Positions 24,760 through 28,890 of a DNA stretch of 37,095 nucleotides are shown piece after piece (positions within the stretch are counted from its first letter, which is position 1; every line of letters starts with the position of its first letter). Below the pieces are notes generated by a model. That model had not been told where the DNA came from and made no database searches. It worked only from the letters and a program-made list of their open reading frames with translations. Source of the DNA: Thiobacillus sp. (GTDB lineage Bacteria; Pseudomonadota; Gammaproteobacteria; Burkholderiales; Thiobacillaceae); assembly GCA_024709685.1 (NCBI GenBank), contig JANJWF010000125.1, positions 1 to 37,095 on the forward strand. Direction: 5' to 3'. Made by a program: the position numbers and the translations under genes.

Positions 24760-25013
24760 GGCGTGTCCTGCTGTCTGAAGCCACAGGTGGCGAATAGTGA
24801 ATTTGTCGAACTCACTGCCTATATAAAGGTATAGCAGAAGGTTTTCGGGTCTTGCGCGTGCGTCGGCGTGCCAGCGGGCGAATGAGCCCTGCAACCCGAC
24901 TGAGACGTCTGCGTGAGGCCGAGGCGTGTCGGAACCTGCGAAGGGTGGTAGGCTGGGATCGGCTATCGCGGCCGCAATGGCCGCCGTCTTTGAACGCTTT
25001 CCAGGAATTCCCC

Positions 25014-27725
25014 ATGCGCACCACTGCCCCGAAAACGGTCCATCTCAAGGACTACACGCCCCCCGCCTGGCTCGTCGACACGGTCGATCTGCATGTTTCG
25101 ATCCATCAGGGTCACGCCGAGGCCCGCGCCCGGCTTGCCTGCCGGCGCAATCCGCAAGGGGCGGGCGGCCCGCTCGTCCTGAACGGCCAGGAACTCGCGT
25201 TGCAGTCCGCGAGCCTCGACGGCGCCGCACTTGAGCCGTCGCGCCATACGCTCGACGAGGAAACGCTGACCATCGCGGGCGCGGATTCCGCGCCGCTGCC
25301 GGACGCCTTCGTGCTCGAAACCGTCGTGCGCATCGAGCCGGACGCCAATACCCAGCTATCCGGCCTCTACCGCTCGAAAGACGGCTACTTCACCCAGTGC
25401 GAGGCCGAGGGTTTCCGCCGCATCACCTTCTTCCCCGACCGCCCGGACGTGATGGCGCGCTACAGCTGCACCGTGGAGGCCGAGCGCGAGCGCTTCCCGC
25501 AGTTGCTGTCGAACGGCAACCTCGCCGCTGCCGGCGTCTGCGAGCACGACCCCGCGCGTCACTGGGCACGCTGGGAAGACCCGTTCCCCAAGCCGTCGTA
25601 TCTCTTCGCGCTGGTCGCAGCCAAGCTCGACGTGCTCGAGGACCGCTTCGTCACGCGCTCCGGCCGCACGGTGCGGCTGGCGATCCACGTCGAACCCGGC
25701 AAGCTCGACCAGTGCGGCCACGCGATGACGGCGCTGACGAAGGCGATGCACTGGGACGAGGAACGCTTCGGCCTCGAGATGGACCTCGACTGCTACATGA
25801 TCGTCGCGGTGGGCGACTTCAACATGGGGGCGATGGAGAACAAGGGCCTCAACATCTTCAACACGAAGTACGTGCTGGCCCGCCCCGACACCGCGACCGA
25901 CGCCGACTACCAGGGCATCGACCGCGTCGTCGGCCACGAGTACTTCCACAACTGGACCGGCAACCGCGTCACCTGCCGCGACTGGTTCCAGCTCTCGCTG
26001 AAGGAGGGCCTCACCGTCTTCCGCGACCAGGAGTTCGGCGCCGACATCCATTCGCGCGCCGTCACCCGCATCCAGGAAGTGCGCGGCCTGCGCGTCGGCC
26101 AGTTCCCCGAGGACGCCGGCCCGATGGCGCATCCGGTGCGCCCGGCGTCCTACGCCGAGATCAACAACTTCTACACCGCGACCGTCTACAGCAAAGGCGC
26201 CGAAGTCGTGCGCATGATCCACACGCTCGTCGGACGCGAGGGCTTCCGCACCGGCATGGACCTCTATTTCCGGCGCCACGACGGCCAGGCCGTCACCTGC
26301 GACGATTTCGTCGCCGCGATGCAGGACGCGTCAGGCGTCGAGCTCAACCAGTTCCGCCGCTGGTACGCCCGCGCCGGCACCCCGCGCCTCAAGGCCGAGG
26401 GCAGCTGGGATGCGGCGACCAAGCGCTACACGCTGACGCTCACGCAAAGCCTCGCCGCGACCGCCTACGAGCGCCGGATGACGGAGACGGGCATGGCGGT
26501 CGACGAAGGCCCGCTCCACATTCCCGTTGCGCTCGGCCTGGTGCTGCCCGACGGCAGCGACGCCCCACTGCGGCTTGCCGGCGAGGCCGCGCACGCCGGC
26601 ACCACGCGCGTGCTCTCGCTCACCGAAGCCAGCCAGACCTTCGCCTTCGAGGACATCGCGGCAGCGCCGGTCGCCTCGCTGCTACGCGACTTTTCCGCGC
26701 CGGTGATCCTGGAATTCGACCAGTCCGACGCCGAACTCGCCCACCTGATGGCGCACGATTCCGATGCGTTCAACCGCTGGGATGCCGGCCAGCGTCTCGC
26801 CACCCGCGTGCTGCTCGCCGGCATCGCGTGCGGAGGGGAGGGCACAGACTGGATCCCCGCCGACTTCGTCGCCGCCTGCGGCCGCGTGCTCGACGCCGGC
26901 CTCGCGGAAGATCCCGCGCTCGCCGCCGAAGCGCTGGTGCTGCCGGCCGAGCAGGTGCTGGCGGAGGAGGTCGCCAGCCGCGGCGAAACCATCGACCCCG
27001 AGGCCATCCACCGCGCCCGCATCAGCCTGCGCCGCTATCTCGCCGTGCAATTGCGCGATCGTTTCGAGGCGGTCTGGGCCGCCCTCGCTCCCGCCGAGCC
27101 CTACGCACCCGACGGCGCCCAGGTCGGCCGCCGCGCATTGCGCAACCTCTGCCTCGGCTACCTTGCCGAGAGCGACGGGACGTATCTGAAAGCCGCCGTG
27201 CTCCCGCGTCTCATGGCGCAATTCGAGCAGGGCGGCAACATGACCGACGTCATCGCCGCGCTTTCCACGCTGGCCAACCTCGACCTGCCCGAACGCGAGA
27301 CCGCGCTCACGGCGTTCTACACGCATTGGCAGGACGAGGCGCTGGTGGTCGACAAATGGCTGCAGGTGCAGGCGACCTCGCGCCTGCCCGGCACCGCGGC
27401 GCGGGTACGCGAACTCATGCGTCACCCGGCCTTCGATATCAGAAACCCCAACAAGGTCTATTCGCTGGTGCGCAGCTTCTGCGCCGCCAACCCGTGCCAC
27501 TTCCATGCCGCAGACGGCAGCGGCTACGCACTCGCGGCCGACGTCATCGTCGAGCTGCAGGCGATCAACCCGCAGGTGGCCTCGCGCCTGGCACGCAGCT
27601 TCGACCGCTGGCGCCAGTTCGACGCCGTGCGCCAGGGGCATGCACGGGCGGCACTGGAGCGGATCCGGGACTGCGAAGGGTTGGCGAAGGATGTCGCCGA
27701 GGTGGTTGGCAATGCTTTGAGGTGA
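25014..27725 (+). CDS. pepN: Aminopeptidase N (M1 family)
   Basis: MRTTAPKTVHLKDYTPPAWLVDTVDL; GAMENKGLNIFN; HEYFHNWTGNRVTCRDWFQLSLKEGLTVFRDQEF: HEXXH-X18-E zinc site. Confidence 0.97.
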   Translation: MRTTAPKTVHLKDYTPPAWLVDTVDLHVSIHQGHAEARARLACRRNPQGAGGPLVLNGQELALQSASLDGAALEPSRHTLDEETLTIAGADSAPLPDAFVLETVVRIEPDANTQLSGLYRSKDGYFTQCEAEGFRRITFFPDRPDVMARYSCTVEAERERFPQLLSNGNLAAAGVCEHDPARHWARWEDPFPKPSYLFALVAAKLDVLEDRFVTRSGRTVRLAIHVEPGKLDQCGHAMTALTKAMHWDEERFGLEMDLDCYMIVAVGDFNMGAMENKGLNIFNTKYVLARPDTATDADYQGIDRVVGHEYFHNWTGNRVTCRDWFQLSLKEGLTVFRDQEFGADIHSRAVTRIQEVRGLRVGQFPEDAGPMAHPVRPASYAEINNFYTATVYSKGAEVVRMIHTLVGREGFRTGMDLYFRRHDGQAVTCDDFVAAMQDASGVELNQFRRWYARAGTPRLKAEGSWDAATKRYTLTLTQSLAATAYERRMTETGMAVDEGPLHIPVALGLVLPDGSDAPLRLAGEAAHAGTTRVLSLTEASQTFAFEDIAAAPVASLLRDFSAPVILEFDQSDAELAHLMAHDSDAFNRWDAGQRLATRVLLAGIACGGEGTDWIPADFVAACGRVLDAGLAEDPALAAEALVLPAEQVLAEEVASRGETIDPEAIHRARISLRRYLAVQLRDRFEAVWAALAPAEPYAPDGAQVGRRALRNLCLGYLAESDGTYLKAAVLPRLMAQFEQGGNMTDVIAALSTLANLDLPERETALTAFYTHWQDEALVVDKWLQVQATSRLPGTAARVRELMRHPAFDIRNPNKVYSLVRSFCAANPCHFHAADGSGYALAADVIVELQAINPQVASRLARSFDRWRQFDAVRQGHARAALERIRDCEGLAKDVAEVVGNALR

Positions 27726-27872
27726 GTAACACTGCCGGGTTACTCTATGACGCGTTTCCGTCCATATTTAGGACGGCCTAAAAAAAGATAAGCAGTTGTT
27801 TGTTATATATTTTTTTAATCGTTTGTCCCGAATGACGCTTTATAAACCGTCATTTAGGATGGACACTTTACG

Positions 27873-28264
27873 TTAGGCAACAAACATGACCGGCAGCGAA
27901 AGTACAGTCTCCGACAAGAAGAAGGCTTTCTATGCGAAAAGCATCTACGAACTCACCTACGTGGGCTTTTTCTTCGCATCGTGGTTCGGGCTCTCAGTGC
28001 TCCTTTATGATCCGCTTTGCGAGAAGCGCGGCTCAAACGCAGCGGGTGGCTTTGTAGTTATCGTTTTTCCCCTAGTTTCACTACTGATCGCCGGGTTAGC
28101 AAAGTTTTTTATTCACCACTATTACGTACGCAAAAAGTTCGGCCCCGTAGCGACAGAACTCTTTTATGGCCGTGGCTCATCCAAGTATCTCGACAAGGAG
28201 TGACTACGTTGCCTAACACTGCGGTCAAGCGGGACGCGCTAGAGCGCGCCCCTTACCTCCAACG
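27873..28264 (+). mobile_element. Putative integron gene cassette 1
   Basis: Lies between GTTAGGC core (27872-27878) and GTTAGGG of the attC at 28264-28270; recombination point taken as G^TT. Confidence 0.75.
27886..28203 (+). CDS. Cassette-encoded hypothetical membrane protein, 105 aa
   Basis: MTGSESTVSDKKKAFYAKSIYELTYVGFFFASWFGLSVLLYDPLCEKRGSNAAGGFVVIVFPLVSLLIAGLAKFFIHHYYVRKK: two hydrophobic segments. Confidence 0.7.
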   Translation: MTGSESTVSDKKKAFYAKSIYELTYVGFFFASWFGLSVLLYDPLCEKRGSNAAGGFVVIVFPLVSLLIAGLAKFFIHHYYVRKKFGPVATELFYGRGSSKYLDKE

Positions 28265-28270
28265 TTAGGG
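28211..28270 (+). repeat. attC recombination site 1
   Basis: GCCTAAC-actgcggtcaagcgggacgcgctagagcgcgccccttacctccaac-GTTAGGG: RYYYAAC...GTTRRR ends with imperfect dyad, 60 bp. Confidence 0.85.
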
Positions 28271-28691
28271 GTCTCCTGTGAATCTCGATGAGTTGGCAAC
28301 CGCGATGAAGAAGACTTCTGGCGATCCAGTCGCTTTGAAACTCTCCGACCTGGTTTCAGCTTGGAAAGACGACGAGTCGAACGCAAAAGAACTCGAAAGC
28401 ACCGTCGAGCGATACATTGGCAATTCATGGATCTCCAACACAGCAGAACACAAAGAAATCTATAGCTTGTGGTCCCAGTTCCGGAACGATGCGATACACG
28501 GGATCGGAGGCATGACAATGAACGAAAGGCTGTATTCCTTCAGCCTATTTCCACGTTGGGACAGTGCTCAAACGGATGAAGATCGAAAGGCAATCTATGC
28601 AAAGTTGCTGGCCAACCCCTAACACTGCGGTCGAGCGGGACGCTACGCCAGCAAGCTTCGCTTGCTGTCTCCGCGCCCCTCACCTTCAACG
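28265..28691 (+). mobile_element. Putative integron gene cassette 2
   Basis: Bounded by R' cores of the two attC sites. Confidence 0.75.
28278..28622 (+). CDS. Cassette-encoded hypothetical protein, 114 aa, GTG start
   Basis: MNLDELATAMKKTSGDPVALKLSDLVSAWKDDESNAKELESTVERYIGNSWISNTAEHKEIYSLWSQFRNDAIHGIGGMTMNERLYSFSLFPRW; stop TAA lies inside the attC R'' core. Confidence 0.7.
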   Translation: MNLDELATAMKKTSGDPVALKLSDLVSAWKDDESNAKELESTVERYIGNSWISNTAEHKEIYSLWSQFRNDAIHGIGGMTMNERLYSFSLFPRWDSAQTDEDRKAIYAKLLANP

Positions 28692-28697
28692 TTAGAC
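28617..28697 (+). repeat. attC recombination site 2
   Basis: CCCTAAC-actgcggtcgagcgggacgc...CAGCAAGCttcGCTTGCTG...gcgcccctcaccttcaac-GTTAGAC; arms nearly identical to attC 1 (19/20 and 21/23 nt). Confidence 0.85.
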
Positions 28698-28706
28698 ATC
28701 AAAATC

Positions 28707-28817
28707 ATGGACCAAAAATCCTGGAGCGATAGAGTGGCTGGTCTTGCAGTGGACGCCTTATTGACTGCGCAAATTGTGAAGAAAGAAGACTTCGAGCGCG
28801 CGGTGACAGAGAAATAG
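28707..28817 (+). CDS. Possible 36-aa ORF of a third, probably truncated, cassette
   Basis: MDQKSWSDRVAGLAVDALLTAQIVKKEDFERAVTEK* immediately after attC 2; no third attC found downstream. Confidence 0.45.
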   Translation: MDQKSWSDRVAGLAVDALLTAQIVKKEDFERAVTEK

Positions 28818-28821
28818 GGTC

Positions 28822-28850
28822 GGACACGATATTGAAAAGACATCGTGTCC
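28822..28850. repeat. 9-bp perfect inverted repeat at distal end of cassette array
   Basis: GGACACGAT-attgaaaagac-ATCGTGTCC. Confidence 0.7.
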
Positions 28851-28890
28851 ATTTATCGCCCCCCGTTGCCTCAGTCGATTTTCACGACAT

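Follow-up and report, generated by a model that had tools for sequence, protein, structure and literature searches.

Is an array of gene cassettes that lacks a neighbouring integrase the residue of an integron that has decayed in place, or did its cassettes arrive by secondary insertion? For CALINs this origin is usually guessed, and attI, the site that could reveal it, is hardly annotated outside class 1 integrons. The question is raised by a short array lying directly downstream of pepN in the window, by which we mean the whole 37-kb contig (C76; 37,095 nucleotides) of a 2.55-Mb Thiobacillus MAG (79% complete, 195 contigs). Judging from comparison with related sequences, we put a probability of roughly 0.85 on this locus being the remnant of a chromosomal integron, from which a deletion would have removed intI while attI and two complete cassettes were kept.

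Two attC sites had been proposed here in an earlier note made from the sequence alone, together with a call for a covariance-model check. Our attC covariance model was derived from 33 sites that adjoin intI in other genera of the same order, none of them from Thiobacillus; its helices covary strongly. Both proposed sites scored high over the full length of the model and at exactly the positions given (E = 7e-13 for attC1 and 2e-12 for attC2; Table 1), on the same strand and 406 bp apart. Given how short and variable attC sites are, weak chance matches are to be expected, and the dyads might have been fortuitous or have belonged to another kind of repeat; however, the same model found a single 15-bit match in 953 kb of background (70 pepN loci, other genomes), as against 64-66 bits here, and the cassette boundaries are exact and a third cassette is mobile (see below), so we ruled this explanation out and regard it as hardly conceivable. 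The single-strand folds of the sites have z of about -3 to -4, and at both the bottom strand is the more stable (-16.0 vs. -15.3 kcal/mol for attC1; -21.1 vs. -17.8 kcal/mol for attC2), which is the asymmetry expected of attC.

The R' boxes lie at 27872-27878 (GTTAGGC) and 28264-28270 (GTTAGGG), and the R'' boxes start at 28211 (GCCTAAC) and 28617 (CCCTAAC). In both cassettes the leading R' is exactly complementary to the cassette's own R'', and such pairing at the boundaries is what the insertion of circular cassettes leaves behind; on this comparison the cassette structure is established. The lengths of the compact modules noted earlier match these boundaries, and their low GC content was borne out as well (0.49 vs. 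0.64 for the window, within the lowest 1% of windows). Each cassette carries a single ORF, and the two share one orientation. Searches of plasmids and of 398 genomes from the order turned up no relative of either ORF, those of Pfam, PHROGs, NCBIfam and PADLOC gave nothing usable on function, and the single-sequence AlphaFold model of the cassette 2 product is of low confidence (pLDDT 65.5).

Table 1. Features of the pepN-linked array, with positions numbered from the first letter of the window.
Feature	Position	Strand	Details
pepN	24942-27725	+	M1 aminopeptidase N; Pfam M1 and DUF3458 domains
Integron leader (intI 5' region and attI)	27726-27871	+	146 bp between pepN and cassette 1
Residual intI 5' end	27744-27764	-	ATG and five codons (MDGNAS), then stop and pepN; reverse-strand translation
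attI core	27824-27882	+	profile match 68.2 bits, E 6e-19; ends at insertion point G/TTAGGC (cut after G)
Cassette 1	27873-28264	+	392 bp; leading R' GTTAGGC complements own R'' GCCTAAC
Cassette 1 ORF	27886-28203	+	105 aa; no family match
attC1	28211-28270	+	66.4 bits over full covariance model; fold
Cassette 2	28265-28691	+	427 bp; leading R' GTTAGGG complements own R'' CCCTAAC
Cassette 2 ORF	28278-28622	+	114 aa; no confident family match; low-confidence helical model
attC2	28617-28697	+	64.3 bits over full covariance model; fold
Cassette 3, truncated	28692-28805	+	95% identity over 133 bp to G326 cassette; sharp end at 28805
REP-like palindrome	28817-28852	.	GGGTCGGACACGAT..ATCGTGTCC, directly after truncated cassette 3

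What precedes cassette 1 carries most of the argument. A DNA search with positions 27726-28890 against 57 Thiobacillus genomes aligned 27747-27878, at 74-80% identity, with the segment immediately upstream of intI in four of them (G330, G351, G306 and G328). The search yielded 20 aligned attI copies, of which 6 adjoin a complete intI and 14 do not; these 14 represent about ten loci, judged by shared flanks, and 11 of them head attC arrays on the expected strand. The aligned copies have in common AATGACG..CGTCATTTAGGATGGACACTTTAC before GTT, after which a different sequence follows in each, and in other families, too, the attI profile matches at the corresponding position next to intI (53.9 bits in L106, for instance). 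The six residual codons on the reverse strand correspond to the segment that starts intI in relatives; beyond them nothing of intI is recognisable in the leader, and no sigma-70-like promoter was found there. Comparison thereby identifies the segment between pepN and cassette 1 as the attI of a former integron, so that, measured against a complete integron, the array has the attI at its head but only six codons of the intI gene. Within the attI core, a 7-bp inverted repeat (AATGACG..CGTCATT, 27831-27862) is retained in most of the aligned copies. A MITE-like element was considered for this palindromic core and dropped because the core adjoins intI in several families; it was also disfavoured by the 11 of 14 copies without complete intI that are followed by correctly oriented attC sites.

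The earlier picture of a CALIN-like, integrase-less array is therefore right as far as it goes: the two attC sites and their cassettes are there, and a TIGR02249 profile search, which establishes the absence of intI from the contig, found none over its 37 kb. It was incomplete in overlooking the attI at which the array starts, the residual intI codons and a truncated third cassette.

The leader directly abuts the pepN stop codon, and loss of intI from the integron would explain why the 3' end of pepN now adjoins it. This pepN is 85% identical to that of another Thiobacillus MAG (G351, locus L013), and in every relative compared the DNA similarity ends at 27715-27726, where pepN has its stop codon. 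The earlier note would have counted syntenic sequence that is identical in all relatives, with no sign of mobility, against its reading; this is not what we find. The array is chromosomal, flanked by pepN on one side and an OmpA-family gene on the other. An Rfam search at the locus gave no useful match. At the pepN junction itself there is a short dyad (GAGTAAC..GTTACTC, 27724-27730 and 27739-27745) that resembles the R'' and R' boxes of an attC minus its middle. An attC remnant was considered at this point; the intI reading frame accounts better for part of the stretch, though not for the short dyad.

Nine relatives and G305 have a variable stretch between pepN and a common downstream block, and in three of these stretches there are attC sites. 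Near the pepN 3' end of G341, G323 and G340, attC sites occur with no attI match. From these alignments the pepN 3' end appears as a recurrent place for cassette DNA, the species being related and not independent cases. In one clade (L184, L186, L187, L319 and other pepN-downstream loci) this 3' end looks like a hotspot for insertions, with a variable stretch that often contains attC ahead of a conserved downstream block. Our initial idea had been that an integrase put the cassettes at attG, a secondary, non-integron site behind pepN where no platform ever stood. Insertion at attG is documented for IntI1 (as cited in PMC12444791), and the attC sites without attI in G341, G323 and G340 are in keeping with it; the array in the window, however, starts not at non-integron sequence but at a full attI that still has intI codons and is homologous to the site linked to intI. 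We dropped the idea once the leader had matched attI, and consider it very improbable.

We favour instead the loss of intI from an integron in place. A platform of intI, attI and cassettes would formerly have stood beside pepN; a deletion would have taken intI save its first six codons, bringing the attI leader up against the 3' end of pepN; in a further event the array would have been severed within cassette 3, next to the REP-like element; and the result would be the intact attI followed by two complete cassettes. Stages of such decay appear to survive elsewhere in the genus, where three of the 14 attI copies without complete intI have intI remnants of 88, 47 and 42 codons beside them. The 88-codon remnant belongs to G305, in which the order is pepN, about 370 bp, the intI remnant, attI and cassettes, the same order as in the window, and the graded remnants together with this order support an origin by intI deletion. 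At a fourth copy (L315) there is a weak 30-residue intI match that partly covers the leader itself.

Two further explanations meet this evidence. In the first, attI and array came to pepN as a unit, copied or moved from another locus, and intI never stood there. The genus has about ten loci where attI lacks a complete intI, and the window leader is closer to the locus shared by G303 and G330 (82 and 81% identity), a different one, than to the pepN locus of G305 (74%), so that the pepN-linked attI sites of the window and G305 may not be strictly orthologous. Relocation would nevertheless have to account for the 88-codon remnant lying between pepN and attI in G305, and the shorter remnants at other loci form the pattern of progressive deletion; we judge it unlikely, though less so than insertion at attG. 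In the second, the contig is an assembly chimera in which pepN was joined to an array that stems from a different place or a different organism, as the fragmentation of the source MAG and the different genes that follow pepN in every relative might suggest. Yet G305 offers an independent instance of attI and cassettes downstream of pepN, oriented as in the window, an agreement in order that argues against a chimeric contig, and the attC and attI types fit the genus; a chimera thus has only a slim chance of being correct.

At its distal side the array breaks off. The sequence after attC2 (GTTAGACATCAAAATCATGGACC..) matches a cassette of G326 that is intact, has its own attC (GTCTAAC..) and lies among different neighbours. 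Because similarity to it stops at 28805, the window copy is truncated, and because the cassettes are 95% identical while the pepN genes of the two species are only 78% identical, the third cassette has moved laterally between species; both points are established by this comparison. The G303 array (L312) likewise has a 14-mer of the REP-like palindrome, in inverted pairs, at its distal end. Near that array-closing motif is a sequence that looks, by eye, like a REP-associated transposase.

Integron components are widespread in the genus: attC sites occur in 54 of the 57 genomes, with near-matches to the window attC sites in many, and 41 have an intI match. Clustering of the genes downstream of intI hinted at one common locus for most intact integrons, though by a chained comparison too loose to carry weight. 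The attI cores of orphan and intI-linked copies score alike (median 65.3 vs. 67.6 bits, p=0.84), in a set of copies that were found through similarity to the window and from which the profile was built. The window shares with sedentary chromosomal integrons its chromosomal site and an attC type of the host lineage, but not a large array with its own integrase, having two complete cassettes and no intI. The statement that there is no integrase applies to the window and not to the MAG as a whole, in which the only intI found is a diverged fragment (the first ~104 codons; 66% identity to the linked type) close to the end of another contig (C45) that has five attC sites. In this second integron (L009, 1-4304) the N-terminal ~104 codons give way, close to where the contig ends, to a reverse-strand frame that by eye resembles a LysE transporter, and the five attC sites lie on the other strand; this could be a truncated intI or an assembly break. 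Three more attC sites (54, 35 and 43 bits, one orientation) form a further cassette cluster on contig C167 of the same MAG (L331, 294-1475).

Two loci are informative on what becomes of an attI without its integrase. At the locus common to G303 and G330, neither genome has a recognisable intI and the flank is continuous into the leader. Over the 95 columns leading up to GTT, the two genomes are identical at 92 of 95 positions, compared with 76% in the flank (binomial p=2e-8), and no flank stretch of equal length is as conserved; the cassettes that follow are unrelated, with matches confined to attC sites. At the second locus, G302, G340 and G351 have the same flank junction, one of them with 42 intI codons left, and the sequences after attI are without similarity; here attI itself is not specially conserved. 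The same intI-less or intI-truncated junction followed by unrelated cassettes at two loci suggests an integrase acting in trans, and the simplest reading of these alignments is that an integrase from elsewhere recombined both sites after intI had been lost. Differing cassettes might instead stem from differential loss out of a long ancestral array, although an integrase would again be required if excision were site-specific; homologous recombination at attC sites might likewise account for them. We tentatively propose, at somewhat less than even odds, that orphan attI sites at about ten chromosomal loci in Thiobacillus form a network of docking sites, still filled and emptied by an integron integrase in trans, one integrase gene serving several arrays. 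By the same mechanism, an integron integrase from elsewhere in the cell might insert and excise cassettes at the window attI through the folded bottom strand of attC; in the window MAG, 79% complete, no intact intI is known, and service in trans is unsupported for this strain. With species pairs that have a common integrase-less junction and different cassettes, the action of an integrase in trans at orphan attI sites is open to direct test.

The array is a CALIN in having two attC sites, single-ORF cassettes in one orientation and no intI nearby. It differs in that its attI and the first intI codons have been identified, and these reveal its origin directly; IntegronFinder does not detect attI outside class 1. 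The kind is already known, and the Thiobacillus array is a further member of it. An attI-headed CALIN has a precedent: that of Shewanella prophage M16-3 (PMC9892861) likewise has attI at the head of an intI-less array, but its setting is a prophage, next to a complete integron whose attI is the same, whereas the Thiobacillus sites are chromosomal and occupy about ten loci in the genus. The ilvD integrons and dispersed CALINs of Xanthomonas (PMC12444791), in the portion of that source drawn on here, are similar in that integrases have been inactivated or deleted while arrays persist, with CALINs at several chromosomal loci; those away from ilvD are described there without attI, whereas intI-less arrays in Thiobacillus are headed by it. 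In the Delta-attI-type cassettes of class 1 and 2 integrons (PMC12901181), attI sequence is also found away from its usual place beside intI, but in those a cassette ends in part of an attI in place of attC, and here a full attI heads the array. What may surprise specialists is the recurrence of orphan attI sites at multiple loci, together with the evidence of their turnover in trans.
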